From: an uncultured Pseudomonadales bacterium
Lineage (GTDB): Bacteria; Pseudomonadota; Gammaproteobacteria; Pseudomonadales; Pseudohongiellaceae
DNA length: 42,843 bases
Assembly (NCBI GenBank): GCA_949430125.1
Contig: CASQMQ010000049.1
Coordinates: forward strand, 1 to 42,843
Reading direction: 5' to 3'
Part shown: in pieces, positions 1,969-33,433 of the stretch
How the letters are laid out: each line of letters starts with the position of its first letter
Position numbering within the stretch: the stretch's first letter is position 1
Made by a program: the position numbers and the translations under genes
Notes under the pieces: model-generated
What the model was told of the DNA's origin: nothing
Database searches by the model: none
What the model saw: the letters and a program-made list of their open reading frames with translations, nothing else

Positions 1969-2133
1969 CCCTGAGGGTTCGGCTTCCTTAGGGTCTTCAA
2001 CTCCTTTAGAGACGCGCCATTGACGGTCAGTCGGGTAATCCCACAACTCCGTGAATTAGCCGCATTTCTATTGATTCTTGGCCACTAAACCTCTAAGTTA
2101 CGGGCTCAGCATGATTAACCCTTGGGGGATCGA

Positions 2134-12196: not shown

Positions 12197-12565
12197 AGTT
12201 GTAGAGTCTCATTGGTGTGTTGAAAGTAAAGTTAAAAAATCCTTGCTGCTTTATAAACCAAAGCGAGCTGATTGAGAAAAATGCGCTTAGTACTGCGCAG
12301 TCACCGCTGATGAATGTCAGTAAAACTAGCACTTAGAATTGCCTGATTACAATGAATTAACGGAAAAATGACCGATTCGTAGGTCTTTACCTTGGTAAAC
12401 TGCACAATAGTCGAGGGTAAGCCAGATAAAGAGGAGATTTTTGCCCGCTAAACCGATGTTTTCTCGATAGTAGGCACGGTATTATGTCGAGAACGTGAGT
12501 CCTTATGGAGAGAGTTAAGGTCCGTTAGTAAAATGCTGTAATAGCCAAATGTGCTGAGAATTAAT
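12197..12565. promoter_or_regulatory. Divergent intergenic region between dipeptidase and gamma-glutamyltransferase genes
   Basis: About 370 bp between two divergent starts must carry both promoters. No boxes stand out enough to assign. A perfect 10-bp palindrome, ACTGCGCAGT, is at 12292-12301. No convincing gene is seen. Confidence 0.4.
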
Positions 12566-14305
12566 ATGAGAGTCCCTTTTTCAAAATCTGCCGTACTTCT
12601 ACTGTTTGCATATTCCTTCACCGCTTATTCACAGACAACCACAATTAGCAACGAATCGACACAGGAAAACCCGTGGACTTATGGTTTTATGGCCGCGGTG
12701 GCTAACCCGCTGGCCACCGAGGCAGCAGCTCAGATGCTGTCGCGTGGGGGGCATGCAGTCGATGCTGCTATCGCTGCGCATGCCGTACTTGGTTTGATTG
12801 AACCCGAAAGCTCAGGACTTGGAGGGGGGGGCTTCATGTTGGTCTTCGAACGGTCTGACCGGGAAGTGCGTTTTTTTGACGGACGTGAAGCGGCCCCCAG
12901 CGGTGCTCGTGCTGATATGTTCATGAATGGTGATCGCCCCATGGGCTATTTCGATGCAAACCAAAGTGGCAATGCAATCGGCGTACCCAGTGCCATAGCA
13001 CTATATAAAAGCACACATGACACTTATGGCAAGTTACCTTGGGCTGACCTGTTTGAGCCGGCTATCCAATTCGCCGAGCAAGGCTTTGAAGTATCGAGCA
13101 AAATGGCGAGTTATCTCCCTGCTATGGCAAGCCGCAGTCGCCTTGATGAGAATGCAGGGTCGGCAGAATATTTTTACCCCGATGGCGAGCCACTTCAAGC
13201 CGGCGCACTGAATCGAAATCCTGAGTATGCTGCGACTCTTCGTCGCGTCGCTACCGAAGGTCCGGTGGCGTTCTATACAGGCGAAATTGCGGAGTCTATA
13301 GTGGCTGCCGCACAGGCAGGAGATGACGGTGGCACTCTTACCATGGAAGACATGGCCAATTACAAAGTAATAGAGCGGCCTGCTGTATGTGGTCTCTGGC
13401 GTGAACTGAATATTTGCGCGGCGACCCCTCCCTCATCCGGTGCTATGCAGATTATGATAGCCAACCTCTATGATAAATTATTGCCACCCAATCCCACGAT
13501 TACTCAGCGAGTTAAGGCCTTCGTGGATGCTCAGCGACTCGCCTATGCTGACCGCGATTATTATTTTGGTGATCCGGATCATGTAGATGTGCCGGTAGCG
13601 GAGTTAATTGACTCACGTTATTTAGACTATCGCGCCAAAAATCCTCCAGCTCCTAGCGTAGTGCCGGTCCATGGTGACCCTATGCTCGTCTTGGGAAATG
13701 GCAGTGCAGCAGTGTTTGCCGAAGACAGTACCCGTGAGCCTGCCGGCACTACGCATTTTTCTATCGTGGACAGTGAAGGTAATGCAGTCTCAGCCACCAT
13801 GACTGTGGAATCGGCCTTTGGATCCAAACGCTGGGCAGCTGGCTTTGTACTCAACAACGAGATGACAGATTTTGCGCGGACGTATGATCCTGACAAGCCG
13901 GAAGCTGCGAATATGGTGCGTCCCGGTGCCCGACCCCGCTCTTCTATGTCACCTACCATTGTGCTTAACGCAGACAATGATCTGTTTATGGTTACCGGCT
14001 CTCCCGGAGGCAATTCCATTCCCGCCTATACTGCCAAGACTCTAGTGGGTATTGTCGACTGGAAACTGTCAGTGCAGTCAGCGATCAACTTTCCTAATAT
14101 CGTCGCTCGTGGTGAATCCGTGCGCGTAGAAGTTGGGGTGGAGCCAGGCCCAGCCTTGTCAGCCGCATTGACGGAATATGGGTACCAAGTGCGAGAAAGT
14201 CAGGGCGAAAACTCTGGTTTGCATGTTATCTTAGTAGGCGAAAATGGTCTGGAAGGTGCAGCTGACCCCCGTCGACTTGGAACGGTAATGTCTACTACGC
14301 CCTAA
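12566..14305 (+). CDS. Gamma-glutamyltransferase 1 (Ntn-hydrolase proenzyme)
   Basis: A 579-residue exported proenzyme. ATG 12566 is preferred over GTG 12551 because a TGAGAA box precedes it and the signal peptide (about residues 1-22) starts cleanly. The family hallmark is the autocleavage and nucleophile site GTTHFS: Thr395 becomes the N-terminal nucleophile of the small subunit. Arg107 in DGREAAP is the gamma-glutamyl alpha-carboxylate binder. ATPPSSGA and the late SPGGNSIPAY oxyanion region are present. It should hydrolyse or transfer the gamma-glutamyl group of glutathione and related peptides in the periplasm. It is not a recent duplicate of the next gene: outside the catalytic motifs the two are strongly divergent, and they are separated by 229 bp. 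Confidence 0.93.
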   Translation: MRVPFSKSAVLLLFAYSFTAYSQTTTISNESTQENPWTYGFMAAVANPLATEAAAQMLSRGGHAVDAAIAAHAVLGLIEPESSGLGGGGFMLVFERSDREVRFFDGREAAPSGARADMFMNGDRPMGYFDANQSGNAIGVPSAIALYKSTHDTYGKLPWADLFEPAIQFAEQGFEVSSKMASYLPAMASRSRLDENAGSAEYFYPDGEPLQAGALNRNPEYAATLRRVATEGPVAFYTGEIAESIVAAAQAGDDGGTLTMEDMANYKVIERPAVCGLWRELNICAATPPSSGAMQIMIANLYDKLLPPNPTITQRVKAFVDAQRLAYADRDYYFGDPDHVDVPVAELIDSRYLDYRAKNPPAPSVVPVHGDPMLVLGNGSAAVFAEDSTREPAGTTHFSIVDSEGNAVSATMTVESAFGSKRWAAGFVLNNEMTDFARTYDPDKPEAANMVRPGARPRSSMSPTIVLNADNDLFMVTGSPGGNSIPAYTAKTLVGIVDWKLSVQSAINFPNIVARGESVRVEVGVEPGPALSAALTEYGYQVRESQGENSGLHVILVGENGLEGAADPRRLGTVMSTTP

Positions 14306-14534
14306 CGCTGAGGCGTGTTCAGAATTTGGTTTTAGAACAAGAGCGGCCGCGTGGATCATGCGCATTTCACAGGGCTTGTGAAAACCGAAAGCTAAATATT
14401 CTTAACCTTTAGTAGGAGCCCTGATTCTCTGTTTCTGCGGCCATTATGCTTTACTATGTAGCAGCGCAAGGATTCTAAAATAATCTGATTGCAAAAAAGC
14501 AATTTAATCTAGCGCACTATTTGAGAGCAATGTA

Positions 14535-16253
14535 ATGAGTCATCAACTGTTTGGCCGCAAGACCCTAAAGAGCCTAGTATTTTTTCTCAGTTTCCTACTG
14601 ACTTCGACTTCGTTTGCAGAAGGGGGTCGAACGCCGCTGCGAGTTAAGAATGGCATTGTGACAAGTGCTTCGAAACTAGCATCCGAAGTTGGTGTAGAGG
14701 TACTTAAGCAGGGTGGTAACGCGGTTGATGCTGCCATCGCAACTGCATTCGCCTTAGCAGTTACATGGCCTAGTGCGGGCAATATCGGTGGCGGTGGATT
14801 TATGGTCTATCACGGCGATAATGGCCATGCGACTACCTTTGATTTCAGAGAGAAGGCGCCACTTGCTTCTACCGAGCGTATGTATCTGGGTCTCGATGGA
14901 AATGTTGTCGCCAACTCAAACCATATCGGAGCCCTAGCAGTAGGTGTACCAGGAACCGTTGCAGGTTTATGGAAGTCACATCAAGAGCTTGGCAGCCTGC
15001 CCTGGTCCGAACTTGTTGCCCCAGCGGTTAAGCTGGCTCGAGATGGTATTCCCATTAGTTATTCTCTCTACACTGGATTTGCCAGAAGCAAGGGCCGCTT
15101 CGACCAGTATCCTTCCTCCGCTGCCAAATTCTTTAAGGCTGATGGCTCGCTCTACGAGATGGGCGAAACTTGGCGTCAGCCAGATTTAGCTCACACCTTG
15201 GAGCTTATTCAAAACAATGGCGCAGACGGATTCTACAAAGGTGAGAACGCCGAACGCCTAGCGGGTTTCATGGTAGACATTGGTGGAATTATCACCGAGG
15301 AAGATTTACTCAAGTATGAGCCACAAGAGCGCGAGCCCATCCGCGGTACATATCGGGGCTATGACATCGTGAGCATGCCGCCACCAAGTTCTGGCGGTGT
15401 TATTCTGGTTGAGATGTTGAACATACTTGAAGGCTTTGATCTTGCCGACATGGGTCACAATTCCGCTGACTACTTGCATGTTCTAACCGAGACTATGCGC
15501 CGCGCCTATGCAGATCGTGCAGAACATCTAGGCGACCCTGACTTCAATGAAGGCATGCCGCTGCAACGTTTGATGGATAAAGACTACGCAGAGACTCTAC
15601 GTGCTTCCATCGACATGGATGCGGCATCTGAGAGTAGCCCCGCAGATTTCGCGCAGATCTATGAGAGCGAGGAAACTACGCATTTCTCGATTGTCGATAA
15701 AGAAGGCAACATGGTCAGTATGACCTATACGCTGGAATTCGGATACGGCTCTGGAATTGTCGTTGAGGGCGGAGGTTATCTGCTCAACAACGAGATGGGC
15801 GATTTTAATGCTGTGCCAGGTGTCACTACTGCGCGTGGATTAATCGGCACGGCTCCTAATCTGGTCGAGCCAGAGAAGCGTCCGCTGTCCAGCATGACGC
15901 CCACCATTGTTGCGAAGGACGGCAAACCGGTTTTTACGGCAGGCAGCCCGGGTGGAAAGACGATCATCAATACCACCATGCAGGTGATATTAAATGTCAT
16001 CGATCATGAAATGAATATAGCGCAGTCTGTGGAGGCAGGGCGTATTCACCACCAGTGGTTGCCAGATGTAACCAGCATTGAGACCGGCGGGTTATCCCCC
16101 GATACGGTTCGTCTTTATGAAGAGAAAGGCCACCGTGTGACAGAGCGCGGAGAACAGGGAGCTGCTATGGCTGTGTACCATGATCGTGAGAACGGTTTTT
16201 TCGAAGGTGCGGCAGATTCTCGTCGTGGCGATGGCGCTGCGGTCGGTTATTAA
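14535..16253 (+). CDS. Gamma-glutamyltransferase 2 (Ntn-hydrolase proenzyme)
   Basis: A 572-residue secreted proenzyme. The signal peptide covers residues 1-28 (SFA|EGG). Arg105 in DFREKAP binds the gamma-glutamyl carboxylate. The cleavage/nucleophile site is ETTHFS with Thr381, and the GSPGGKTIINT region forms the oxyanion side. It is closer than copy 1 to the classical E. coli Ggt pattern (for example the GGNAVDAAIA and MPPPSSGG segments). A GAGAGC box precedes the ATG. Two different enzymes of this type side by side suggest separate substrates, for instance glutathione versus poly- or other gamma-glutamyl amides; that is inference. A terminator candidate lies about 55 bp after the stop. 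Confidence 0.93.
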   Translation: MSHQLFGRKTLKSLVFFLSFLLTSTSFAEGGRTPLRVKNGIVTSASKLASEVGVEVLKQGGNAVDAAIATAFALAVTWPSAGNIGGGGFMVYHGDNGHATTFDFREKAPLASTERMYLGLDGNVVANSNHIGALAVGVPGTVAGLWKSHQELGSLPWSELVAPAVKLARDGIPISYSLYTGFARSKGRFDQYPSSAAKFFKADGSLYEMGETWRQPDLAHTLELIQNNGADGFYKGENAERLAGFMVDIGGIITEEDLLKYEPQEREPIRGTYRGYDIVSMPPPSSGGVILVEMLNILEGFDLADMGHNSADYLHVLTETMRRAYADRAEHLGDPDFNEGMPLQRLMDKDYAETLRASIDMDAASESSPADFAQIYESEETTHFSIVDKEGNMVSMTYTLEFGYGSGIVVEGGGYLLNNEMGDFNAVPGVTTARGLIGTAPNLVEPEKRPLSSMTPTIVAKDGKPVFTAGSPGGKTIINTTMQVILNVIDHEMNIAQSVEAGRIHHQWLPDVTSIETGGLSPDTVRLYEEKGHRVTERGEQGAAMAVYHDRENGFFEGAADSRRGDGAAVGY

Positions 16254-20545: not shown

Positions 20546-22306
20546 CTATTCACCTTCACTTGATTCTGCATCCACATAGCGGAAGAAGCCGAACATCATC
20601 TCTTGCCAAGTTTGCTCACCCCACGAAATCTCTGCTGAGGGATCTGGGTTGTAAGGATTCATCGCAGAATTATCGAACGTGGCGCGGAAGACCATCTCTG
20701 TGCCAGCAGGGAGGAACTTAGGCTCTTTAAAGTCGTAAGTTTTCTGCCAGTTGAACTGATAGTTCGGCACGTTGAGAATCTCTTCTTCCGTTCCGTCAGG
20801 GTAGACGAGTTTGAAGTTCGCATCTTGTCCTCGGTAGTGCATGTGAGGGCCAACCATAGTCAAGTAGGCGTCTTTACGGAATTTCTTAGAAGCCACCATT
20901 TCATGATTTGCTTCGAACGGAGCAATAGCGATCTCGAGATCAGCAGCCGAACCACCTAAAATAGCGCGCTCAGGCTCTTCGTCCCAGAAATGTATACCAA
21001 TTTCAGAAGCATCAACGGTCTCTTTGCCTGAAGAGGTGTAATGCATTTGAAGAATTAGGCCGCTTCCCTGCGCGAGCGGGAATCCTGCGTCGTCTGGGTA
21101 AGTATTGATAGTGTTACCTGGGGCGTACGCACCGAGGCCGATGCCTTGATTAAGAATGCCGAAGGGGTTCGTTCTGCGTCCGCGGCCCGTATCAGGCGCT
21201 TGCGCCCAAGCGATAATGTGGTGCAGAACTGTGGTATCTCCGGCAACGAACTCAACCGCCTTAACCCACTTATCTTCTGGTAGGTCTAAGGGGAGAACGA
21301 GGTTACGGTACTCAACTGTGCCAGTCGCAGGGATAGTCTGCGGTGGGATGTTAACGATCATATCTGGCTCGCCGTGGCCCCATTTAACCGGAGAAATTTT
21401 GTATTCTGCGAGGGGGTCTGTTGAGCTGTCGTTCCCCGCGCCGCTGTCGATCCAATGGACGAGTTTCTGCGTCTCTTCGACAGAGATCTGGTTAACACCG
21501 TGGAACTGGTTCGAATACTCAGCCCCGATCTGTCCTGGCGGCATGCGCTTGGTAATTAGCACTTCACGAATCATTGGCGACCAGCCCTGAACCATTTGAT
21601 GGCTGCTCATTGCGAAAGGGGCTATGCCGCCTTCCATATGGCAGGTAACACAGCGTTCCTTAAGAATAGGCGCAACGTCGTTGGCGTAGGATACTGAAGA
21701 GACAACAGCGGCGCTGGTTGAGAAGTCAATCTCGTCGCCCTTGCTTTCAGCTTGCTCTGCAGCAATGCTTTGACCTGCAATAAACGCGGTTAGCGCGTCC
21801 GCGACATAATGCTCTTTAGCGCGCCTTGCGCGGCTGCCTTGAGAAAAGCGATCGTTAAGTGCGCCTCGGTAAACAACCTCTTTGGCTGTTGGGTCAAGGA
21901 TTGCTACTTCTGCAGTTCGGCTAAGGCCAAGCTCTTTGGCAACCAGTTGTGTGTCATCCATGAGAATACGCAGAGTTATGTCTTCTTTCTCCGCTGCTTC
22001 TCGCATGGCCAGCTTGTCAACGGAGCCAGTTGAATTGATCATTAAGAACTCGACCTTCTGCCCTTCGAATTGCTCAGCGACGTCCGCAAGATCAGAAGCG
22101 GCACGACGTGCGTCTCTGCTTTGGGGATCGTAGGAAAAAAGAACAATAGCCTGTTCGTCGCCATGGCGGCTTAGTTGGAAAAAACGGCCTTCGGAATCAG
22201 TTAATGAGAAATCGCTAATTCGATCAGCGGCATTGACGGACATGCCAACGAAAACTGTCATTAGTGATGCGGCTGCAATCTTGGCAATCATTAAAAACCT
22301 AAGCAT
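20546..22306 (-). CDS. Redoxin-cytochrome c-PHM-like copper monooxygenase fusion, paralog A
   Basis: A 586-residue exported three-module protein. After the signal peptide (1-26) comes a redoxin-fold domain (about 28-180). In it the peroxidatic region reads SYDPQSRDA with no Cys, so it is probably not redox active. Next is a monohaem cytochrome c module: CVTCH at 219-223 and axial-Met candidate M255 in KRMPP. The C-terminal copper monooxygenase module keeps all PHM ligand positions: HH 362-363 and H422 (LQMHY) for CuH, H488/H490 (PHMHYRG) and M570 (WQEMM) for CuM. AGGAGAG precedes the ATG. In PHM the two coppers hydroxylate the alpha-carbon of C-terminal glycine using ascorbate electrons. Here the haem module may supply electrons. 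Substrate unknown. It stands apart from the tandem pair B/C and is divergent from the nuclease-like gene. Confidence 0.88.
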   Translation of the reverse strand: MLRFLMIAKIAAASLMTVFVGMSVNAADRISDFSLTDSEGRFFQLSRHGDEQAIVLFSYDPQSRDARRAASDLADVAEQFEGQKVEFLMINSTGSVDKLAMREAAEKEDITLRILMDDTQLVAKELGLSRTAEVAILDPTAKEVVYRGALNDRFSQGSRARRAKEHYVADALTAFIAGQSIAAEQAESKGDEIDFSTSAAVVSSVSYANDVAPILKERCVTCHMEGGIAPFAMSSHQMVQGWSPMIREVLITKRMPPGQIGAEYSNQFHGVNQISVEETQKLVHWIDSGAGNDSSTDPLAEYKISPVKWGHGEPDMIVNIPPQTIPATGTVEYRNLVLPLDLPEDKWVKAVEFVAGDTTVLHHIIAWAQAPDTGRGRRTNPFGILNQGIGLGAYAPGNTINTYPDDAGFPLAQGSGLILQMHYTSSGKETVDASEIGIHFWDEEPERAILGGSAADLEIAIAPFEANHEMVASKKFRKDAYLTMVGPHMHYRGQDANFKLVYPDGTEEEILNVPNYQFNWQKTYDFKEPKFLPAGTEMVFRATFDNSAMNPYNPDPSAEISWGEQTWQEMMFGFFRYVDAESSEGE

Positions 22307-22822
22307 TTTGCTCTCCTAAAACTTCAAAAATATAAAGTACTGCTTGCTAACCTAGAATGCATATTAGAGTGCAAATCCAAGGAATACTTCCCGAATATTG
22401 GAAAGAGTGTAAATTTTAATAATCGAATAGCTGTTTTTCACCAAATTGGGCTATTTCCAATGATCTGTACGCGGCAGTTGGGAAAATCCTTCGCGATACT
22501 CCTACAAATGTGAAAACCCGCTACCGCGGGAGGGAAGCTAATTATTTGATTCGCTAGCTATACCGTTTAAGCCAAGCAAATCGGCATAGAATCGGCAAAT
22601 CAATTTTTGTGAGGGATGCTCAATTTTTCCTTGTCAGGAAAATGCCCCAAGTGTTGGCAATATGAGGGATACCATAACTCGGACTATAGCGGCTTCACTG
22701 AGCACAATTAGGTCATTGTCAGGCTCGAATTAATGCTCAACCGGTGCTGGAGTTCAGTGGGCTACAGGCGTTAGACTCCATCTTAGTTCCGCGCCTGTCT
22801 AGGCCCTCAGTGAGGTGATAAC
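22307..22822. promoter_or_regulatory. Divergent intergenic region, about 515 bp
   Basis: It separates the paralog A gene (left) from the nuclease-like gene (right) and must carry both promoters. A short hairpin CCCGC/GCGGG is at 22517-22530. A 7-bp inverted repeat ACAGGCG...CGCCTGT is near 22763-22798. No gene, tRNA or known riboswitch pattern is recognised. Confidence 0.4.
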
Positions 22823-23656
22823 TTGTTTTTGAAATGTTCTAAACAGAGAGATATAGTCATTTGCTTAGGGCGTCAGGCGTTCTTGGCAGGCGTTCTCTGC
22901 CTATCTCGGATCGCTGCTCTGGGAGTATTGCTGATTGCCTCCATGTCTCAAAGTCAGGCTGCTGAGCTGCGTATAGCTCATTGCTTGTATGGTTGCCCAA
23001 AAGGGAGCAGCTCAGAGAACCACCTGATTCTTCGTCCTATATACGCACTTTCATACAACACGCGTAACAAGGTTGCGGACTGGGCTGCATATCGGGTTAC
23101 ATCCGGCTCGATAGGAATTGCGTCGAGCCTATCGCGCGCAGTCATGATTGATGACTTCGTCGAGGAGACGCTTAGTGCGGCGGATTTTATCAATGCCGAA
23201 GAGGCTGGATTTACTCGTGCGCAATTAGTGCCGCTGGTTAATTTTGCAGGCACCCCTTACTGGAATGAAGTGAATTATATGAGTAATGCTGTGGCACGCA
23301 GCCAGAATTTGAGCCTAGGTGCATGGTATGGCTTGGAATGGTCAATTCGAAATTTGGTTAACCGGGAGCGAGAAGTATATGTTTTGACCGGGCCTATTTT
23401 TCGAGACTCACCAGTCGTTGCGAGTTTGGAAACACAGACCCAGCACAGGGTGCCAGATGCATTTTTCAAAATTGTAGTCTCGGCAGATAATCGGGCTACG
23501 GCGTTTATCTTCGATCAAGATTTACCCGTACACGTTCATCACTGCGATACCAGAGCCGCTATCGATGAAATTGAAACGGCTACAGGATTAGAATTTTTCC
23601 CTGAAAATCCCAGGCTAGTTTTGGGATTGTTGGACACTAATCTGGGTTGTTTTTAG
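22823..23656 (+). CDS. Exported DNA/RNA non-specific nuclease-fold protein lacking the catalytic His
   Basis: A 277-residue protein with the layout of NUC1/Serratia-type beta-beta-alpha-metal nucleases: AEEAGFTRAQLVPLVNF, then YMSNAVARSQNLSLGAWYGLEWSIRNL and YVLTGPIF. The DRGH catalytic motif of active enzymes is replaced by TRAQ (131-134), so the general-base His is absent, while the metal-binding Asn region (N155/N162) is kept. The TTG start at 22823 is chosen because GAGGTG at 22812-22817 is well spaced from it and no in-frame ATG gives a full signal sequence. The hydrophobic stretch 29-40 with QAA|ELR cleavage gives export. Four Cys in the mature part (CLYGC, HHCDT and LGCF) could form disulfides. 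It overlaps the convergent YajG-like gene by 4 bp. It may be an inactive binding protein, or may use another mechanism. Confidence 0.78.
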   Translation: MFLKCSKQRDIVICLGRQAFLAGVLCLSRIAALGVLLIASMSQSQAAELRIAHCLYGCPKGSSSENHLILRPIYALSYNTRNKVADWAAYRVTSGSIGIASSLSRAVMIDDFVEETLSAADFINAEEAGFTRAQLVPLVNFAGTPYWNEVNYMSNAVARSQNLSLGAWYGLEWSIRNLVNREREVYVLTGPIFRDSPVVASLETQTQHRVPDAFFKIVVSADNRATAFIFDQDLPVHVHHCDTRAAIDEIETATGLEFFPENPRLVLGLLDTNLGCF

Positions 23657-24225
23657 CGAATCTCAGCTAGAAAATAGTCATCGCCGATAAGCTCATTAAT
23701 TAGTCTATCCAGAGCAGCACTTACAGTGACTGCCATGCCTTCGGTGGTAGGAGCTCTGCCGCGACCGAATAGGTTTGTCTGCCACACCGTGCGACTGCCA
23801 CTCATTAGCTGTACAGAGGCGCGCAGTGTTAATTCTAGCGTCTCAACGCCGCCACGATCGATGATCTTTGCCTCAGTAGCCGTTAGGTTTCCCTGTAGGA
23901 ACATATCGCCATCTGCATCCACTAGATTTGCGTTCGCGTTGGCGAAGCCGCTTTGCATGGCATCCTGTATTATTTCAGCGATCGCCTTCTGCGCTTGAAA
24001 TCCATCGGCACCCAAAAGCTGAGCATCTGAAATCAGACGTGGGTTTGCTACTGCGCGACTATCTGTGAATTCGGCAATGCGTAAACTAACTTTCATGTTG
24101 CTTAGATCGGCGCGCGGGTTGCCAGTTTTTTCGTAGTTGATGACAATATCTTCCGCTGCTAGGGCGGGGATGGAGAATAAACTAATGCAGGCGGCACATA
24201 GTGAAATCATATATCGGATTTTCAT
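23653..24225 (-). CDS. YajG-like exported protein of unknown function
   Basis: About 190 residues. The ATG at 24225 is preferred over upstream in-frame starts because it begins a clean signal peptide (MKIRYMISLCAACISLFS..., cleavage ALA|AED). The mature part has an early VSLRIAEFTDSR strand followed by NPRLIS, an IAEIIQDAMQSGF helix, a GNLTATEAKI strand, a LTLRASVQL strand and a WQTNLFGRG turn. This resembles the YajG/Lipoprotein_16 type of small periplasmic proteins, but here no lipobox Cys is present and my confidence in the family is moderate. Its stop overlaps the stop of the convergent nuclease-like gene by 4 bp. An AAGAGAGA box lies upstream of the start at long spacing. Confidence 0.7.
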   Translation of the reverse strand: MKIRYMISLCAACISLFSIPALAAEDIVINYEKTGNPRADLSNMKVSLRIAEFTDSRAVANPRLISDAQLLGADGFQAQKAIAEIIQDAMQSGFANANANLVDADGDMFLQGNLTATEAKIIDRGGVETLELTLRASVQLMSGSRTVWQTNLFGRGRAPTTEGMAVTVSAALDRLINELIGDDYFLAEIR

Positions 24226-24541
24226 GGAGATGAGTCTCTCTTCGTTTATTGATTTAATGTTGGTTGTTGTGACTAATCGAATTTCTAAATTAGCCTTATC
24301 TGTTCGAGTTTTGAGCATAATTGACATGGTAAACATGATCAAGTATCCGAACCGAATAGAGAGTTGTAAAGATGAGCTACTGTTTGTCCTGCGTTCAGTA
24401 TTTTATAGATGGTGCTTATAGAATGTTTCGCGGCTAGGAGGCTATTCGGCAGCCATCAGCAGTTACAGGAAGCCGTTTCTTCACAGCTCAGAATTTCTTT
24501 GGTGATGCTTATAGAACTTTCCCGTAGCAATCGTAGGACAT
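24226..24541. other. Gene-free spacer
   Basis: About 315 bp between the YajG-like gene's start and the PAL-like gene's terminator. It must hold the promoter of the YajG-like gene. Only short overlapping frames are present, and I see no RNA gene. Confidence 0.4.
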
Positions 24542-24575
24542 AAAAAAGCCGTATCGAATTGCTTCGATACGGCTT
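24542..24575 (-). terminator. Rho-independent terminator of the PAL-like gene
   Basis: A perfect 13-bp stem (24546-24558 with 24563-24575) with a TTGC loop. On the minus strand it is followed by six T residues. It is 25 bp beyond the stop codon. Confidence 0.92.
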
Positions 24576-24600
24576 AGTTTAAAACACTCTGAAGAGTTTC

Positions 24601-25791
24601 TTACAGCTCGTCAGCAGGCCAAGTCGGCGCGCGATCTACGACTGTTACCGGGCGAACTCCTTGGTATAGGAATTTCTGTACTCGGCTGCCTTCATAAGTC
24701 TCAGTAGTGTAGATGTTGTTCTGAGAGTCAGTGGCAATACTGTGAGGTGCATAGAATGTACCTGGCTGACGGCCACCTTGACCGAAAGTGTAAAGCACTT
24801 CCATTGACTCACGATCGATTACAGAGATCTTGAAGTTCTGACCGTCTGCAAGATAGATGAACTCTTGCTCAGGGTCGCGTGAGAAAGCGATATCCCAAGT
24901 TGAACCTTGATTCAACGTAGCTGGGTTATAAACAACTTCTCTTACGTAAGTACCGTCTTTGCGGAAGACCTGAACTCGGTCAGCACCACGGTCACACACA
25001 TATACAAGTCCGTCGTTTGAAGGCTCTGCACAGTGAACTGGGCCACGAAATTGCTGAGGTCCAGGCTGGCCAGGAACATAAGTTACATCAGCTTCATCGT
25101 CAGGAGTATTGCCGTAGGCACCCCAGTAGCGCTTGAAAGCACCAGTAGCTACGTCAACAACTGCAACGCGCTTGTTCTGATATCCATCAGCGAAGTAGGC
25201 TTCGTTAGCCTCAACGTCAATGGCGATTTCAGCAACGCGACCGTAATGGGTCTCGCTGTTACTGTTGCGATCTTCGCCTTGCATGCCGATTGTGCGAATG
25301 TATTCGCCGTCACGTGTGAACACAAGAACGTGTGAGTCACCAGCGCCATTACCGCCGATCCAAACGTCACCGTTAGGTGCGATTTCGATGCCGTGGTTTG
25401 ATGCAGGCCAAGTGTAAGGAGCACCTTCAACAGGTCCGCCCCACGCATTGATGATGTTGCCTTCGATGTCGATTTCAATGATTGGTGGTGCAGGAGTACA
25501 GCATTCTGCGACGCCGCCCTGTAGACCGATTTCAGTGTTGCCACCGAACTGAGACGCGTCATTTCTGTGAACAATGAAGATATGATCTCTCTCGTCTACG
25601 TCAACGCCGATTGTGTTGCCCATTGCCCAATGATTTGGGAGTGGCTTAGGCCAGAATGGGTCCACGAGAAAATGTGGTGCCATTACATCGTTAGATGCAG
25701 CGATGCTCGGCTCTTGTATCTTCGATTGTCCAAGACCAAGGACAACCAATGCAACGACCAGAGTTGCCCCTACAATTAATTTCTTTTTCAT
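24601..25791 (-). CDS. NHL-repeat beta-propeller resembling peptidyl-alpha-hydroxyglycine amidating lyase (PAL)
   Basis: A 396-residue exported or membrane-anchored propeller. ATG 25791 follows a strong GGAGGAAAA box and starts a hydrophobic N-terminus (4-20). At least five NHL-like blades are visible. Compared with rat PAL as I remember it, the zinc ligands are matched by H133 (SNHGIEI), H253 (PVHCAEP) and H350 (APHSIAT). The catalytic Tyr is matched by Y204 in ADGYQNKR (rat DGYCNSR), and the catalytic Arg by R76 in IVHRND (rat FHRGD). The Met next to the third His in PAL is Ala here. PAL cleaves hydroxyglycine-extended peptides to amide and glyoxylate. Since PHM-like genes lie on both sides, a paired reaction is plausible. 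NHL propellers are widespread and many have no known activity. Confidence 0.82.
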   Translation of the reverse strand: MKKKLIVGATLVVALVVLGLGQSKIQEPSIAASNDVMAPHFLVDPFWPKPLPNHWAMGNTIGVDVDERDHIFIVHRNDASQFGGNTEIGLQGGVAECCTPAPPIIEIDIEGNIINAWGGPVEGAPYTWPASNHGIEIAPNGDVWIGGNGAGDSHVLVFTRDGEYIRTIGMQGEDRNSNSETHYGRVAEIAIDVEANEAYFADGYQNKRVAVVDVATGAFKRYWGAYGNTPDDEADVTYVPGQPGPQQFRGPVHCAEPSNDGLVYVCDRGADRVQVFRKDGTYVREVVYNPATLNQGSTWDIAFSRDPEQEFIYLADGQNFKISVIDRESMEVLYTFGQGGRQPGTFYAPHSIATDSQNNIYTTETYEGSRVQKFLYQGVRPVTVVDRAPTWPADEL

Positions 25792-26023
25792 TCTTATTTT
25801 CCTCCAAATGCCCGAGTTACGGGGGGTTAACTTTTCCAGAGCAAAGCCGAGTATACTCATTTCTTTGCAGACAGTATACTCACAGGCTAAATTATCCGGG
25901 GCTTGGTGTAAGTATTTGTAACAGCCTTTAGTGGATAGCGATTGATGCGCTAACGAGGACTGTAGCGGTCTTTCTGTATGTCCTGCCTATCTAACTGAAA
26001 TCACTAATAATAAATAAGAAATC

Positions 26024-27403
26024 ATGAAGAAAATCAGCGCTATATTAAGCATAGTTTTACTTAAAAAACTCATTACACCCTGCGTGTTGCTCGCAGCTTT
26101 CTTGATGCCATCACTGAGTTTGGCGCACGATATTCCCAGCCGTGTCACTGTATATGCATTTGTCAAGCCTGAAGGTAATCAATTGACGGCATTACTCCGT
26201 GTGCCTATGGAGGCTTTTGGTGAGATCAGTTTTCCGTTGCGAGGCCCCGGCTATCTTCAATTCTCCGAGGCGGAGTTTGCTCTGAATGATGCGGCTCGTG
26301 TTTATATCACTGAATCTATGCGCTTTTATGAGAACGGTGAGGAATTGACTGAGAAGCAACTGGAAACCGTGCGCGTCTCGCTACCATCTAACCGATCCTT
26401 TACTACCTTTGATGATGCCTTAGAAAATATTCTCAGCCCACGGCTGGAAGATTCGGTGGATTTATTTTGGCGACAGGGTGTGTTGGATGTCATGGTGACC
26501 TATCCCATCGCGTCAGATCAGTCTGAATTCTCCATCAATCCAGAGATAGGAACCTTGTCGAATCAGACCACAACGGTGCTACGCTTCCTATTGCCATCCG
26601 GTGCAGAACGCGTCTTTAACTACTTAGGTAATCCAGGTGTGGTGTTATTGGACCCGCGTTGGTATCAGGCCGCACTTCGATTTGTGAATATGGGCTTCGA
26701 ACATATTCTAGACGGCATAGATCACCTGTTGTTTCTATTCTGTCTCGTGATACCTCTGCGCAGCATGCGGGCGCTAATTCCAGTGGTAACGTCGTTCACT
26801 ATCGCCCACTCGATCACTCTTATCAGCTCGGCATTTGGTATGGCGCCTAACGCGCTCTGGTTCCCACCGTTGATCGAAACCCTAATAGCACTTTCTATTG
26901 TTTACATGGCATTTGAGAATATAGTTGGCGCGAAATTGCAACACCGCTGGGTGGCTGCTTTTGGCTTTGGCTTGGTACACGGCTTTGGTTTTTCTTTCCT
27001 GTTTAGCGACACGCTGCAGTTTGCTGGCGGACATCTATTCTCTTCATTGCTGGCGTTCAATGTCGGTGTGGAACTTGGTCAGATCCTTGTGCTCATTCTG
27101 GTTATTCCTCTGCTGCGCATCCTGTTTCGCTTCTTCGTTCAAGAGCGCGTTGGCACTATTTTGCTGTCCGCTTTGGTGGCCCACAGCGCTTGGCACTGGA
27201 TGCTTGATAGAGGCAACACACTAGCGCAATTTCAAATGCAAATGCCGATCCTCGATTCGATTTTCTTCGCAGGTTTAATGCGCTGGGGCATGATGTTAAT
27301 CGTTATTGGGCTCGCACTCTGGGCAATGTACGAACTTTTCCGTCGATTCTCGCTCGTTGAGAACATGGCTAGTTATGGCGAGAGCCGCGACGCCGAGAGC
27401 TAA
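26024..27403 (+). CDS. HupE/UreJ-type membrane protein with an exported N-terminal domain
   Basis: A 459-residue protein. A signal peptide (about 1-34, SLA|HD) is followed by a periplasmic domain of some 190 residues. About seven transmembrane helices then begin with the HupE/UreJ_2 signature GFEHILDGIDHLLFL. Further His residues in membrane segments (FTIAHSITL, GLVHGFGFSF, LVAHSAWHW) could bind metal. The HupE group is linked to nickel or cobalt uptake, but this two-domain form is common in genomes without hydrogenase or urease. Its substrate is open. Sitting between copper-monooxygenase-like genes, it may handle copper; that is inference. The Shine-Dalgarno sequence is weak (AAGAAA). No terminator is seen in the following spacer. 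Confidence 0.85.
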   Translation: MKKISAILSIVLLKKLITPCVLLAAFLMPSLSLAHDIPSRVTVYAFVKPEGNQLTALLRVPMEAFGEISFPLRGPGYLQFSEAEFALNDAARVYITESMRFYENGEELTEKQLETVRVSLPSNRSFTTFDDALENILSPRLEDSVDLFWRQGVLDVMVTYPIASDQSEFSINPEIGTLSNQTTTVLRFLLPSGAERVFNYLGNPGVVLLDPRWYQAALRFVNMGFEHILDGIDHLLFLFCLVIPLRSMRALIPVVTSFTIAHSITLISSAFGMAPNALWFPPLIETLIALSIVYMAFENIVGAKLQHRWVAAFGFGLVHGFGFSFLFSDTLQFAGGHLFSSLLAFNVGVELGQILVLILVIPLLRILFRFFVQERVGTILLSALVAHSAWHWMLDRGNTLAQFQMQMPILDSIFFAGLMRWGMMLIVIGLALWAMYELFRRFSLVENMASYGESRDAES

Positions 27404-27718
27404 ATCAGAAGTATTTGGATAGCCCTGTTGCCGATGTTATACGTGTTTTCGAGCCGGCTACACATTCCTAAACTATTGAATTAATAAGATCTATTGTCGG
27501 AGTTCGCGCCCATTCAGTTTCAGTTTGTCACTAAGCCTTAAAGTCTGTAGTTGTACGTTAACAAGCAGATTGCGCTAAGCTGCCTGACATTGCTTGAATC
27601 CAGGTCTAAGCAAATTCTGTTGTAGCTTAATTGCAGTGGAGCGAAGTGAGTTCTCAAGAGGAATTGCCGCTCCACTCTCTCACTGAGCAGCGACCTTGCT
27701 AACTGAAAGGTTATTTAA
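27404..27718. promoter_or_regulatory. Leader/promoter region of paralog B with inverted repeat
   Basis: A 315-bp spacer. A 9-bp inverted repeat AGTGGAGCG (27635-27643) / CGCTCCACT (27668-27676) lies about 40 bp before the start codon of paralog B. It could be an operator or a 5' untranslated hairpin. No gene is seen. Confidence 0.4.
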
Positions 27719-29485
27719 ATGAAAAAGCTAGGCGCAGTATTTCTCGTTCTTTTAAGCGGTATCTTCGCGATTCAAGCTCTTGCTGGAGCTGAGCGAGTTG
27801 GAAATTTTGCTCTAATCGATCATGACGGCGTCTACCATCAGTTGCAGAAATATGGCGACAGCAAGGCGGTAGTCATTATTGCTACAGCGGCGAGCTGCAT
27901 CGATAATATTGATCAGCTGCACAAGTATCGTTTGCTGCGTACTACTTGGGAGCAAAAAGGGATTACCTTCCTTGCCATAAATTCCGACGCAAGTGATAGT
28001 CCCGCAGATGTTCGCTTGATGGACAATCTTCACAATTTCGATATACCTATCTTGTTAGATGATAGTCAGCTTGTTGCCGAAAGTCTCGGCCTAAGCAAGG
28101 CTGGTGAGATAGTAGTATTGGAGCCTTCGCGCGGTCAGATTCTTTACCGTGGTGGTTTAGATACTGACCCGGTTCGAGCGCGACCCGCGCTCAATATTGA
28201 GCCCGTAGCAGGTACTACCGTTTTCGCAGATGTGTTGTCCGCGGCGGTTGCCGATGATGCTGCCTCAATCGAGCAAACGATCACTACCGATGCGGTCGGT
28301 TGTGAGCTGCAATTCCCAGCCAGAGAGATGCATGCCAGCTATGCTCCTGACTATGCGACTGAGGTTGCACCAATACTGGAAGAGAAGTGCATTAGCTGCC
28401 ATGTAGAGGGAGGCATAGCACCATTCGCGATGGACTCGCATATGATGGTTCAAGGTTGGTCGCCCATGATGAAAGAAGTCATCATGACTAAGCGCATGCC
28501 GCCTGCTCAAGTTGATCCTAACGTAAAACATTTTATTAACGCTCGTTATATGGATGCGCAGGAGTTGCAAACTCTTGTTCATTGGATAGATTCAGGCTCG
28601 CCTCGTGGCGTCAGTGAAGTCGATCCACTCACTCTAATCGAGCCGCCTAATTCCGTTTGGGAGCTGGGTGAACCCGATTACATAGTCGATGTGCCCGCTT
28701 TTAACGTGCCTGCAACGGGCGTCTTAGACTACGAGCGTGTCACGATCAACCTGCCTTTCGAGAAAGACGTCTGGATTAAGTCCGTGCAACACCTTCCCGG
28801 CGATCGACGTGTTCTTCATCACCTGCTGAGCTATATCGTTCCCGCCGACTATGCTGAAGAAATCGTTGAGGGCGAAAACGACAACTACAGAGAATTTCTG
28901 GAAGGCTATGCTCCGGGAAAAGATGAGGCAGTAACGTATCCTGAAAAAACAGGTGTATTCGTCCCGAAGGGATCGGCGGTGCAAATGTCTCTGCACTACA
29001 CGACATTTGGAAAAGATGTGATCGATAGTACAAAGCTAGGTCTCTATTTCGCAGACACAGAACCCAATTACCAGTACTCGACTTATTCCCTAAGTCATGG
29101 TGGAACTAACATCGTAATTCCACCGGGCGTATCCAATCATGAGATGCGTGCGTCTCACTTGTTCGAGGACGAGGTGGTGTTGCACGGGCTGCGCCCGCAT
29201 ATGCATTATCGTGGCAAGCGCATGCGCTTTAGCGTCGTCTACCCAGATGGCACAAAAGACCAGATCATTAATGTGCCTGATTACAACTTCGCTTGGCAAC
29301 CAACCTACCGACTCTCGGAGCCTATGTTGTTACCCGCAGGTTCTAGAGTGATGATCGAAGGCGCCTTTGATAACTCCCAATATAACCTCGGCAACCCAGA
29401 TCCAGCTGCTGTTGTCACGGGAGGCGCCCAGAGTTGGGATGAGATGTTTATTGGCTATCTCTCCTACAATAAGACCGGCCAGTAG
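27719..29485 (+). CDS. Redoxin-cytochrome c-PHM-like copper monooxygenase fusion, paralog B
   Basis: A 588-residue exported protein with the same three modules as paralog A. Signal peptide 1-23. Redoxin-fold domain about 25-185 with a single Cys60 (TAASCID) at the peroxidatic position. Cytochrome c module CISCH (224-228) with M260 in KRMPP as likely sixth ligand. Copper module with HH 367-368, H426 (SLHY), H494/H496 (PHMHYRG) and M576 (WDEMF). An added Cys195 (AVGCELQFP) precedes the haem module; paralog C has it too, A does not. AAAGG precedes the ATG. It is followed by its own terminator and then by paralog C, so B and C are a tandem duplication with separate transcription. Probably periplasmic. 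Confidence 0.88.
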   Translation: MKKLGAVFLVLLSGIFAIQALAGAERVGNFALIDHDGVYHQLQKYGDSKAVVIIATAASCIDNIDQLHKYRLLRTTWEQKGITFLAINSDASDSPADVRLMDNLHNFDIPILLDDSQLVAESLGLSKAGEIVVLEPSRGQILYRGGLDTDPVRARPALNIEPVAGTTVFADVLSAAVADDAASIEQTITTDAVGCELQFPAREMHASYAPDYATEVAPILEEKCISCHVEGGIAPFAMDSHMMVQGWSPMMKEVIMTKRMPPAQVDPNVKHFINARYMDAQELQTLVHWIDSGSPRGVSEVDPLTLIEPPNSVWELGEPDYIVDVPAFNVPATGVLDYERVTINLPFEKDVWIKSVQHLPGDRRVLHHLLSYIVPADYAEEIVEGENDNYREFLEGYAPGKDEAVTYPEKTGVFVPKGSAVQMSLHYTTFGKDVIDSTKLGLYFADTEPNYQYSTYSLSHGGTNIVIPPGVSNHEMRASHLFEDEVVLHGLRPHMHYRGKRMRFSVVYPDGTKDQIINVPDYNFAWQPTYRLSEPMLLPAGSRVMIEGAFDNSQYNLGNPDPAAVVTGGAQSWDEMFIGYLSYNKTGQ

Positions 29486-29530
29486 ACACGCACTTAGCCT
29501 TCACTTATGGCCTTCACTAGGACCTCCTTT

Positions 29531-29554
29531 AAAAGGCCGATTCGGCCTTTTTTA
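29531..29554 (+). terminator. Rho-independent terminator of paralog B
   Basis: AAAAGGCCG and CGGCCTTTT pair around an ATT loop, with additional T residues after the stem. It lies 45 bp beyond the stop codon. Confidence 0.85.
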
Positions 29555-29763
29555 CTGTGGCAGGGGGGTTAAGCCTCATAGCTTGCATCTGATTCTCGGA
29601 TTTTCTGGCGAAGCCTCGCTAAAAGCTGTGATAGACCTTTCTGCATCCGCGCTATTTTGTTACAAAAAGTAATTTTTCAGGCTGCACATTCCGGCTCACC
29701 TGCGCTAGACTCTTGTGGCTAATAAATACGTTTGCAAATAGCTTGTTTCTTGGAGCACGGAAA

Positions 29764-31467
29764 ATGAATAACCTAATCGGATTTGGAATAGCTCTGATCA
29801 CTTTAGTTCTATCTGCCTCAGCCATGGCGCTGCCAGATAGAGTCGGTGATTTCGGACTTATGGATAGCAGCGGTGAATTTCACCAATTGAGTCGTTATCG
29901 CCATAAAGAGGCACTGGTATTAATGTCTTTCGATAGCAGCTGTTCAGCCATTAATTCCTCCGTAGCGAGCCTAGAGGCTATGGCGTCACAATGGAACGGT
30001 CAGGGTATCGCCTTCGCGTTGATCAACTCCTCGGCAGAGTCAAATATTGAGGCGATTCGATCAGCCAAATCGGCGCTTGGGTCGGATTTGCCCTTGCTGC
30101 TCGACGACGGACAGATCGTTTCAGAAACTCTGTCTCTGACTAAGGCTGGCGAGATCGTTGTCCTTGATCCAGAGCGCCTTACGATTCTATACCGCGGCCC
30201 CGTAACAAGTGCAGCAGCTACATTGTCTAGCGAGTTAGCTGGCACGGTGGAGCGTACAATGATTATTGATGCTGTTGGTTGTGACCTCGAATTCCCAGTT
30301 AGAGAAACTCACGCAAGCGCAGTTCCCGACTATGCGACAGAAGTTGCACCAATCATTGCTGAGCAATGCGCAACTTGTCACCGTGAAGGTGGAATCGGAC
30401 CATTCGCTATGGACAGCCATTTGATGCTACAGGGGTGGTCACCGATGATTCGCGAAACGCTTATTACTAAGCGCATGCCTCCTACACAAGTTGATCCAAA
30501 CATTGGTCACTTCAACAATGCGCGTTACATGACAGATGCCGACTTGCAGACTCTTGTTCATTGGATCGATGCTGGAGCGCCTCGTGGTGCCGCTGCTATT
30601 GACCCGTTAACAGAGATCGATATGCCTAACTGGAAAGAGTGGAGCCTAGGCGAGCCTGACTTCATCATTAAGGCTCCGAAGATGGAAATTCCTGCAACTG
30701 GAGTGCTCGACTACATCGATGTAGACGTTGAGCTGCCTTTCGACGAAGACAAGTGGGTTAAAGCAGTTCAGTTTATTCCCGGTGACGAATCAGTTCTTCA
30801 TCACCTTCTCACATACGTAACTGCACCTGCCGAAAACTTTGACGGCGGAGAAGGCAACACAACTTCTGTTGCTCGTCGTTTCCTCGAGGGTTATGCCCCC
30901 GGAAAGGTCGACGCGATGACATTCCGTGATGAGACAGGCGTGTACATTCCTAAGGATCATAAATTGTCCATGCAATTTCACTTTACAACTAACGGTAAAG
31001 CGACAACGGATGAAACGCTTATTGGTCTGTATATGTACGACGAGCCACCCAAGTACGAGAATTTCACTCGTTCGGTAGCTTCGCAGTTCAAGATCCCTGC
31101 GTACGACCAGGACTATGAATCAGCGGCTCAATACACGTTCGACGAGGACGTAGTAGTAACAGGCCTGCGTGCTCATATGCACTTCCGTGGTAAGGACATG
31201 AAGTTCGCCATGGAAAATGAAGATGGCACAATGACTGATCTGCTTAGTGTTCCAAACTATAGCTACGCATGGCAGCCCACTTATGAATTGGAAGAGCCAG
31301 TGCAGATCAAGGCGGGTACCAAAGTGCATGTTACAGGCGCTTTTGATAATTCCGAGTTCAATCCAGCTAATCCTGATCCTTCTCAGGAGCTTGTTTTTGG
31401 ATTGCAGAGCTGGGATGAGATGTTTATCGGTTATTGGACATACCATGCCGCGGCGCCATCTAACTAA
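29764..31467 (+). CDS. Redoxin-cytochrome c-PHM-like copper monooxygenase fusion, paralog C
   Basis: A 567-residue exported protein. ATG 29764 is preferred over an in-frame upstream start because GGAG is spaced 8 bases from it and the signal peptide (1-22) begins there. Redoxin-fold domain about 25-165 with single Cys60 (DSSCSAI). Cytochrome c module CATCH (202-206) with M238 in KRMPP. Copper module with HH 346-347, H406 (MQFHF), H471/H473 (AHMHFRG) and M553 (WDEMF). It is much closer to B than to A over the haem and copper modules (shared FLEGYAPGK, VDPN and QTLVHWID segments). All ligands are intact, so it should be functional. It is flanked by terminators on both sides and is therefore probably monocistronic. 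Confidence 0.88.
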   Translation: MNNLIGFGIALITLVLSASAMALPDRVGDFGLMDSSGEFHQLSRYRHKEALVLMSFDSSCSAINSSVASLEAMASQWNGQGIAFALINSSAESNIEAIRSAKSALGSDLPLLLDDGQIVSETLSLTKAGEIVVLDPERLTILYRGPVTSAAATLSSELAGTVERTMIIDAVGCDLEFPVRETHASAVPDYATEVAPIIAEQCATCHREGGIGPFAMDSHLMLQGWSPMIRETLITKRMPPTQVDPNIGHFNNARYMTDADLQTLVHWIDAGAPRGAAAIDPLTEIDMPNWKEWSLGEPDFIIKAPKMEIPATGVLDYIDVDVELPFDEDKWVKAVQFIPGDESVLHHLLTYVTAPAENFDGGEGNTTSVARRFLEGYAPGKVDAMTFRDETGVYIPKDHKLSMQFHFTTNGKATTDETLIGLYMYDEPPKYENFTRSVASQFKIPAYDQDYESAAQYTFDEDVVVTGLRAHMHFRGKDMKFAMENEDGTMTDLLSVPNYSYAWQPTYELEEPVQIKAGTKVHVTGAFDNSEFNPANPDPSQELVFGLQSWDEMFIGYWTYHAAAPSN

Positions 31468-31520: not shown

Positions 31521-31720
31521 CGCTCTTAGATAAGTGTTATTGCCCCGGCTGATTAATTGATGACCTTACCCTGCAAAGGGGGCAGGATTCGAGTACTAAC
31601 ACCAGCTGTGAACCCCCCTAATAAAGCCAGTAATTACAAGACTTTCCGTTGTATCGCCGTCCCCTAACTTGCTATGATGCCGCATCTAGATTTCATAATA
31701 ATAATCCCGGAGAGCGCTTT

Positions 31721-33433
31721 ATGTCCTCGATCTTCATCGTCATTTTCGGTCTAGTCGGCTTTTCTTTTGGCTGGTTTGTCTATTCCAAATTCATCGCACA
31801 GAAAATCTATCAGTTAGACCCTGACTATGTGACTCCTGCGCATCGAATCAACGATGGCATCGATTATGTGCCTACTAACAAGTATGTGCTCTGGGGTGCT
31901 CACTTCACGGCTGTAGCCGGCGCGGCACCGATTGTAGGTCCTGCGATCGCGGTATACTGGGGTTGGGTTCCGGCATTATTATGGGTTACATTCGGCAGCA
32001 TATTCTTCGCCGGTGTCCACGACATGGGAGCCTTATGGGCAAGTAACCGCCACGGCGCGAAGTCAATCGGTGCCCTTTCCTCAGATGTCATTGGTAAGCG
32101 TGCGTCTGCCTTGTTCATGGTTATCATCTTTCTGTTGCTGGTGTTGGTTAACGCGATGTTCGCGACCATCATTGCGACAGATATGGTTATCTTCCCTTCA
32201 TCAGTATTCCCCGCTTGGGCCGCAATTCCAGTAGCTATATGCATCGGAATACTGATTCGTAAAAACTACAACCTGTTGCTGATATCTGTAATTGGTGTTG
32301 CGATTCTCTACTTCACGATCTACGTCGGTAGTGTGATGCCTCTGGAATTACCTGGTGATGTTTTTGGTCTGGGTGCCAATGGCAACTGGATTATCCTGTT
32401 GTTTGTCTATGCAGGTATTGCTTCGATGTTGCCGGTATGGCTGTTGTTGCAACCACGTGACTACATCAATGGTGCGCAGCTAGTCCTAGGTTTGTTCGTT
32501 CTCTACAGTGCGGTATTTATCGCGCTGCCAAATGTTTCTGCACCAGCGTTCAATCCGAATCTGGCTGTTGATACGCCGCCCATATGGCCAATTCTATTCG
32601 TCACAATTGCCTGCGGTGCCTTGTCTGGATTTCACGGTATCGTAGCTTCCGGAACCAGTTCTAAGCAGCTGAGCAATGAGAAGGACGCACGCTTTGTTGG
32701 TTATCTTGGTGCGCTTGGTGAAGGTTCGCTGGCATTGATAACAATCGTTGCTGTGACCGGATCGCTCTACGCTGCAACGGGTGCGGAATGGGATGCGATC
32801 TATTCTGGTTACGCGAGCGGCCCTGGGCAGAAAGGCTTTATTGACGGCGGTGCGATTTTGATTTCAACAGGCTGGGGCATCCCCATTGCCTTCTCACAAA
32901 CCATGCTAGCCGTAATGGTGGTGCTCTTTGCGGGTACTACTATGGATGCGGGCTTACGCCTGCAGCGCTACATCATTCAGGAGTGGGGTAGCATTTATAA
33001 CATCGCTCCGTTCAAGAACAACATCGTCGCTACATTAGTGGCAATAGCTGCCTGTTTGATGTTGGCATTCGGTGTGTCCGCGGGTAACTATCCCGGAGAC
33101 GGCGGCGCTTTAATCTGGCCTGTATTTGGTGGCACTAATCAGATTTTGGCTGCGATGACCTTGCTGCTAATTGCAGTTTATCTGATGCGATTAGGACGCC
33201 CGACAAAAGCTATTTTAATGCCAATGATCTTTATCTTCGTAATGGCATTTTGGGCCTCTTGCTGGTACATCGTGAGTCATTATCAGAATGGTCAATGGGC
33301 ATTGGTTGTTATCGAAGTATTGGTGATGATCACTAGCATCATGGTTATGCTGGAAGCACTAGGCGTAATTTCGAAGATCAGAAGTGGCGAGATTGCTGTT
33401 GAATCGTCGGAAGCTGCAAACGCGGGAGAGTAG
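31721..33433 (+). CDS. cstA: CstA-family carbon-starvation permease
   Basis: A 570-residue polytopic inner-membrane protein of the CstA/BtsT family. ATG 31721 is preferred over the upstream TTG frame because GGAGAG is correctly spaced and the N-terminus begins directly in TM1. The family core is visible: TNKYVLWGAHFTAVAGAAPIVGPAIAV, then GVHDMGALW and the later SGFHGIVASGTSSKQL segment. CstA proteins take up peptides or pyruvate under carbon limitation in E. coli. The protein is shorter than E. coli CstA (about 700) at the C-terminal end. Its 5' region carries a GGGGG...CCCCC repeat (31578-31582 with 31613-31617) of unknown role. A terminator follows. With the peptide-hydrolase genes nearby, peptide or pyruvate import is a reasonable guess. 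Confidence 0.88.
   Translation: MSSIFIVIFGLVGFSFGWFVYSKFIAQKIYQLDPDYVTPAHRINDGIDYVPTNKYVLWGAHFTAVAGAAPIVGPAIAVYWGWVPALLWVTFGSIFFAGVHDMGALWASNRHGAKSIGALSSDVIGKRASALFMVIIFLLLVLVNAMFATIIATDMVIFPSSVFPAWAAIPVAICIGILIRKNYNLLLISVIGVAILYFTIYVGSVMPLELPGDVFGLGANGNWIILLFVYAGIASMLPVWLLLQPRDYINGAQLVLGLFVLYSAVFIALPNVSAPAFNPNLAVDTPPIWPILFVTIACGALSGFHGIVASGTSSKQLSNEKDARFVGYLGALGEGSLALITIVAVTGSLYAATGAEWDAIYSGYASGPGQKGFIDGGAILISTGWGIPIAFSQTMLAVMVVLFAGTTMDAGLRLQRYIIQEWGSIYNIAPFKNNIVATLVAIAACLMLAFGVSAGNYPGDGGALIWPVFGGTNQILAAMTLLLIAVYLMRLGRPTKAILMPMIFIFVMAFWASCWYIVSHYQNGQWALVVIEVLVMITSIMVMLEALGVISKIRSGEIAVESSEAANAGE

Follow-up and report, generated by a model that had tools for sequence, protein, structure and literature searches.

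Do bacteria carry a counterpart of the two-step system in which animal PHM and PAL amidate peptide hormones? The question is raised by a stretch of 42,843 nucleotides (termed the window; it forms contig C49 of a draft genome that totals 1.95 Mb at 69% completeness), the nearest named relatives of its genome being uncultured Pseudomonadales, OM182 and Pseudohongiella-type Gammaproteobacteria. Between positions 20546 and 31467, three genes for putative haem-fused copper monooxygenases (A, B and C) lie on either side of a gene for a PAL-like propeller, and an earlier sequence-only reading of the window had proposed that they share a PHM/PAL-like pathway. The analysis described here upholds the family assignment of both protein types, and the locus is tentatively read as an exported system that carries out oxidative N-dealkylation in two steps, as PHM and PAL do, with a probability of roughly 0.45 on the basis of sequence comparisons and structure models.

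Three monooxygenases combine a PHM-like part with a haem

Monooxygenase A is encoded at 20546-22306 on the minus strand, and B (27719-29485) and C (29764-31467) on the plus strand; the reading frame of C is open from 29713, with its first ATG at 29764. The open frames of A, B and C comprise 586, 588 and 584 amino acids, and pairwise identities are 38% (A-B), 39% (A-C) and 48% (B-C). Each protein has a redoxin-like N-terminal domain, a haem c site with CxxCH and the Met of a KRMPP motif, and a PHM-like part bearing the ligand set HH / H / HxH / EM. In B, the haem site CISCH (residues 224-228) is encoded at 28388-28402, the CuH ligands His367-His368 at 28817-28822 and the third CuH ligand, His426, at 28994-28996, while the CuM ligands fall within the segments RPHMH (His494 and His496; 29192-29206; RVHTH in PHM) and MFIGY (Met576; 29444-29458; MCNLY in PHM), all on the plus strand.

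Pfam and NCBIfam were by themselves too weak to settle the family of the window proteins. The Pfam model Cu2_monoox_C (cut-off 23 bits) was passed by B (23.3) and C (27.2), with A below it at 16.0, and the Pfam N-terminal copper domain gave no match in A, B or C at an E-value of 0.1. Searches of the PDB with the single B or C sequence returned no copper enzyme among the matches, and a 43-row profile (A5) found none at an E-value of 1. A 7-row profile of own-genome paralogues (A6) matched DBH as the sole copper enzyme (E 1e-4), and its copper ligands aligned with those of DBH.

Structure models were made for B and the propeller only. The B model (mean predicted local distance difference test score, pLDDT, 89.9; predicted template modelling score, pTM, 0.87) displayed the two-domain PHM/DBH fold. 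Foldseek ranked human DBH first (E 2.6e-15) and rat PHM next (4.9e-15), the template modelling (TM) score to PHM being 0.57-0.65, and thioredoxin-like proteins matching the N-terminal domain appeared lower in the ranking. All six copper ligands (three His at CuH; two His and one Met at CuM) were kept in 66 of 70 aligned relatives, which were selected by the analyst from 117 nonredundant sequences among 153 matches. Taken with the fold matches of B and the propeller and the haem motif shared by all 70, this conservation shows that the resemblance is not due to chance. Both the complete set of ligand positions in A, B and C and their description as haem-fused copper monooxygenases, as given by the sequence-only reading, were thus borne out. 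A disulphide-bonded core typifies animal PHM but is not a feature of the catalysis itself; the PHM parts of all three window proteins are free of Cys.

The window genome contains 14 PHM-like genes (eight with a redoxin part, five with haem only and one without evident haem), of which one redoxin-bearing gene is split between frames and one haem-only gene is cut by a contig end, and additionally one redoxin-only relative. A three-module monooxygenase at L043:12648-14358 (own contig C22) is split across two frames, through either a real break or an assembly error. In two further paralogues, L045:13236-14828 (own genome) and L283:1049-2740 (genome G044), the CuM histidines are lost, R and N standing in their place, with the CuH site, the haem motif and the Arg/Tyr positions described below being kept; these are possible non-hydroxylating forms. 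A search of a plasmid collection returned no relative of B.

Residues matching the PHM carboxylate clamp are kept in B and C

Around CuM, PHM has FAYRVHTHH and DEMCNLY, with an Arg two residues before the first His and a Tyr four residues after the Met. These we take to be R240 and Y318 by count, holding the substrate carboxylate. At the matching sites B has LRPHMH and DEMFIGY, in which Arg492 and Tyr580 occupy the clamp positions; C likewise has Arg and Tyr, and A has Gly and Phe instead. Arg and Tyr occurred together in 47 of the 70 aligned relatives, neither without the other, and the other pairs were the A-type Gly/Phe (6), Gln/Trp in two-domain rows (14) and Ala/Trp (3). The own-genome paralogue L040, outside the 70, combines Arg with Trp. 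Because the 70 rows are related, the pairing marks clades as well as function. The clamp residues of B and C point to a carboxylate as the likely substrate.

The propeller retains PAL active-site residues

The PAL-like gene lies at 24601-25791 on the minus strand, within a frame open to 25860. The start at 25791 that had been proposed for it is supported as the best choice, being Met24 of the longest open frame with GGAGG upstream. The model of the six-bladed propeller was of fair quality (pLDDT 83.8), and rat PAL (3fvz) was its top Foldseek match (E 6.6e-17, TM to target 0.77). A family profile matched the same structure with an E-value of 2.3e-27, aligning HR, HG, DGYxNxR, H, DR and H. All seven sites checked aligned with rat PAL, among them the three His, the DGYxNxR Tyr and the HR Arg already named by the sequence-only reading; in PAL these sites comprise three zinc ligands, the catalytic Tyr and Arg residues of the active site. 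The Cys of the animal DGYCNSR site is absent from the window protein, which has DGYQNKR. No close homologue of the propeller with a proven other function was found by way of family names and a literature search, the only routes taken.

The propellers fall into two classes at the seven sites, RHYRHRH, as in PAL and the window gene, and RHHRHRE. The former is also present in all 14 far homologues from other families. The window genome has 11 propeller matches, and among nine other own-genome propellers checked, eight were RHHRHRE and one (L040) was RHERHRH. In the RHHRHRE class of this genome (L041, L042, L052, L053, L054 and L056), the PAL Tyr is replaced by His and the third zinc His by Glu, and in the rows checked these substitutions occur together. 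On own contig C34 (L040:7700-9487), a PAL-like propeller with Glu at the catalytic Tyr is fused to a metallo-beta-lactamase-fold domain, and a two-domain monooxygenase lies 2.2 kb away.

The haem module as a candidate electron donor

The two copper sites of PHM and DBH lie about 11 Å apart. Modules that form a single protein in some lineage but are encoded by neighbouring genes in a different one are usually functional partners. CxxCH and the conserved Met were found in 70/70 aligned relatives, and Met260 of B is the probable sixth haem ligand. The redoxin part has no Cys in A and one in B and in C. Two genomes from a sister genus (G044 and G110) have three PHM-only genes with Arg/Tyr and all six ligands, adjoining one separate redoxin-haem gene (L282:1653-6222; L287:691-5144; signal sequences judged by eye), away from the PAL loci. 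Such split arrays are as expected if the haem module is the electron donor, and since the modules are fused in the window and are adjacent genes in G044 and G110, donation from the haem to the PHM-like part is the natural reading and may be inferred. PHM itself draws one electron per copper from ascorbate (PMC6123673).

The PAL-like gene sits in a conserved cluster

Linkage was studied in 52 loci picked by the main type of PAL-like gene, of which 34 had 6 kb on both sides and 18 were short on one side. A set of 76 loci picked by monooxygenase was set aside for this purpose, since these largely share plain synteny. In the 34 full loci, HupE was found in 34, the LptE-like gene in 33, a monooxygenase in 31, the CstA-type gene in 30, biotin ligase in 21, the nuclease in 14 and amidohydrolase in 13; across all 52, the counts were 44 for HupE, 47 for LptE-like, 39 for monooxygenase and 37 for CstA-type. 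Conservation was therefore higher in the core than in the flanking genes, and higher for HupE than for the monooxygenase. In G572, G577, G597 and G601, a second PAL type (~45% identity) had a different monooxygenase at a distance of 3.2-3.6 kb, and this monooxygenase was of the Arg/Tyr kind in the three genomes fetched (G572, G577 and G597).

Among 79 host-family genomes searched at E 1e-60, both gene types were found in 56, PAL only in 6, monooxygenase only in 2 and neither in 15. All six PAL-only genomes carry the ~45% type, and of the 62 PAL-positive genomes, 10 whose best match was of that type are included in these four counts but left out of the main-type counts. A monooxygenase was present in 52/52 family genomes with the main-type PAL. 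Fisher's test gave a p-value of 1e-9, for genomes that are not independent and a pattern that follows genera. In 145 genomes of the order (E 1e-15), a monooxygenase was found in 9, PAL in 7 and both in 5, all five in the host family; in 398 genomes of the phylum (E 1e-20), PAL was found in 15, a monooxygenase in 3 and both in 1, the window's own. PAL was also present in all 25 genomes reached via loci of relatives, a set that overlaps the host family and is not a separate sample; 22 of them were reached via a locus without the main-type PAL in the fetched stretch. The anticipated co-occurrence of the two gene types was thus strong within the host family and absent outside it.

Neighbouring genes

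From left to right, the gene order is A (-), an exported-nuclease-family gene (+), the LptE-like gene (-), the PAL-like gene (-), HupE (+), B (+), C (+) and a CstA-family carrier (+). The LptE-like exported protein (23653-24342, minus strand), a member of the conserved core, matches Pfam LptE weakly (14.3 bits, below the cut-off of 23). The HupE/UreJ_2 membrane protein (26024-27403, plus strand; Pfam), a probable metal carrier, is divergent from the PAL-like gene, with a gap of 163 or 232 bases depending on the start chosen for the latter. The CstA-family carrier (31649-33433, plus strand; Pfam, E 1.9e-129) is also a core member, and scores below the cut-off of the NCBIfam-type family named after E. 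coli CstA, a pyruvate/proton symporter.

Hydrolases were correctly placed to the left by the sequence-only reading: an M14 peptidase, an M19 dipeptidase, two gamma-glutamyltranspeptidases, a penicillin-amidase-family protein and an amidohydrolase are present. The tandem gamma-glutamyltranspeptidases adjoin the M19 dipeptidase (12551-16253), an arrangement as for glutathione breakdown. A 346-residue open frame at 2122-3162 has no Pfam match at 0.001.

Discussion

In the interpretation favoured here, the reaction takes place outside the cytoplasm. In place of ascorbate, the haem would deliver electrons one at a time to the coppers. A peptide or small N-acylglycine ending in glycine would be hydroxylated by B and/or C at the alpha carbon of that residue, and cleavage of the resulting hydroxyglycine by the PAL-like protein would give glyoxylate and a primary amide. 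A metal could be provided by HupE. Uptake of glyoxylate by the CstA-type carrier is a testable guess, because CstA is named as a pyruvate/proton symporter and glyoxylate is, like pyruvate, a 2-oxo acid. A probably acts on another substrate. This chemistry is plausible for the cluster; peptide amidation would be a hypothetical use of it, and small glycine conjugates are equally possible substrates. With so many paralogues and with hydrolases close by, a role in nutrient scavenging seems more probable than one in signalling. The full scheme, in which an ascorbate-free bacterial amidation has a fused c-type cytochrome feeding both coppers from respiration, a stand-alone PAL finishing the reaction and a CstA-family carrier importing glyoxylate, probably as a nutrient pathway, is as a whole unlikely.

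The shared pathway is favoured by homology, copper ligands, active sites, co-occurrence in the family and clustering, as well as by the ~45% PAL type lying near a monooxygenase of its own and by the split arrays of G044 and G110. Several observations weigh against it. Co-occurrence is not independent evidence, because it follows genera, and monooxygenases without the main-type PAL occur in G587 and G610 within the family, in G039, G087, G105 and G134 within the order (G105 has one propeller match to a mixed profile, 4.7e-38) and elsewhere in G385. All 14 PAL genomes outside the family gave no match to a sensitive 70-row monooxygenase profile, and yet their PAL proteins keep all seven residues. 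In the 40 main-type PAL loci with any monooxygenase, the Arg/Tyr kind is present in only 23, and 10 have Ala/Trp only; the monooxygenase adjoining PAL is of the Ala/Trp kind in eight loci of genus g2, so that its class shifts between genera. A monooxygenase lies within 6 kb of a third PAL type (~66%) in 2/8 loci and of the ~45% type in 3/19. The cysteines in the aligned regions of animal PHM and PAL are not kept. Finally, homology and copper ligands hold for all three monooxygenases, but A lacks the clamp residues kept by B and C, which makes three equal PHMs around one PAL unlikely, and that arrangement was dropped.

It could be, although this is somewhat unlikely, that both enzymes of these folds act on unrelated substrates and share the cluster through old synteny and a common need for metal met by HupE. 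The absence of monooxygenases from the 14 sampled genomes outside the family, the changing class of the neighbouring monooxygenase and the presence of HupE beside PAL in 34/34 full loci, against 31/34 for the monooxygenase, would all fit such an arrangement, which leaves the 52/52 co-occurrence, the placing of two PAL types each near a different monooxygenase and the carboxylate indicated by the clamp of B and C less readily accounted for. Alternatively, the PAL-like protein could split alpha-hydroxyglycine or similar hemiaminals arising from other oxygenases or the environment, with the monooxygenases hydroxylating other substrates. The full PAL residue set in genomes without such a monooxygenase speaks for an independent lyase, as does a bacterial hemiaminal lyase, unrelated in sequence, that is paired with a non-copper oxygenase (PMC12508155); clustering and co-occurrence within the host family render this distinctly unlikely. 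It is very improbable that the fusion proteins handle copper or redox equivalents rather than acting as monooxygenases, since both copper sites are complete in 66/70 relatives, even though the CuM histidines are lost in L045, in L283 and in 3/70 aligned relatives and the redoxin part is so poor in Cys.

If the PHM/PAL-type reading is correct, bacteria would possess the chemistry by which animals amidate hormones, equipped with its own electron donor and probably serving nutrition. Free-living marine bacteria, of which one genome has about 14 paralogues, would join the organisms capable of C-terminal amidation or of breaking down N-acylglycines by like chemistry, and proteins now bearing family names only would gain a function. 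The fusion of the PHM fold to a haem, and its natural split into neighbouring genes, also offers a way into the question of how electrons reach the two coppers. New here are the co-variation of the clamp pair, the co-occurrence in the family, the recurring PAL cluster and the split PHM/redoxin-haem arrays.

Comparison with known systems

A literature search by title, with most subscription journals outside its coverage, found no haem-fused bacterial PHM and no bacterial PHM/PAL pair. Two public plasmid records already carry the superfamily name, at an identity of just 24-26%; closer plasmid matches (36-47% identical) are hypothetical or unannotated. Methylguanidine demethylation by MgdH/MgdL resembles the proposed scheme in that hydroxylation adjoining N is followed by a dedicated hemiaminal lyase; it differs in using an iron/2-oxoglutarate oxygenase, and its authors state that the lyase has no sequence homology with PAL (PMC12508155).

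B and C resemble rat PHM (1phm, 3mll) in the six copper ligands and the clamp Arg/Tyr, and B also in its modelled fold. Unlike animal PHM, the PHM-like genes of the window are separate and fused to redoxin-like and haem c parts, their PHM part lacks Cys, and the haem would stand in for ascorbate as donor. DBH (4zel) is the best fold match of B and the sole profile match, with ligands in register, but has Gln at the clamp position (SQLHTH), like the two-domain paralogues and unlike the Arg of B and C. The propeller differs from the animal PAL domain in standing alone, with an N-terminal membrane anchor or signal, longer loops and no Cys at the DGYCNSR position, while rat PAL (3fvz) is its top match by both fold and profile and shares with it every active-site residue checked.

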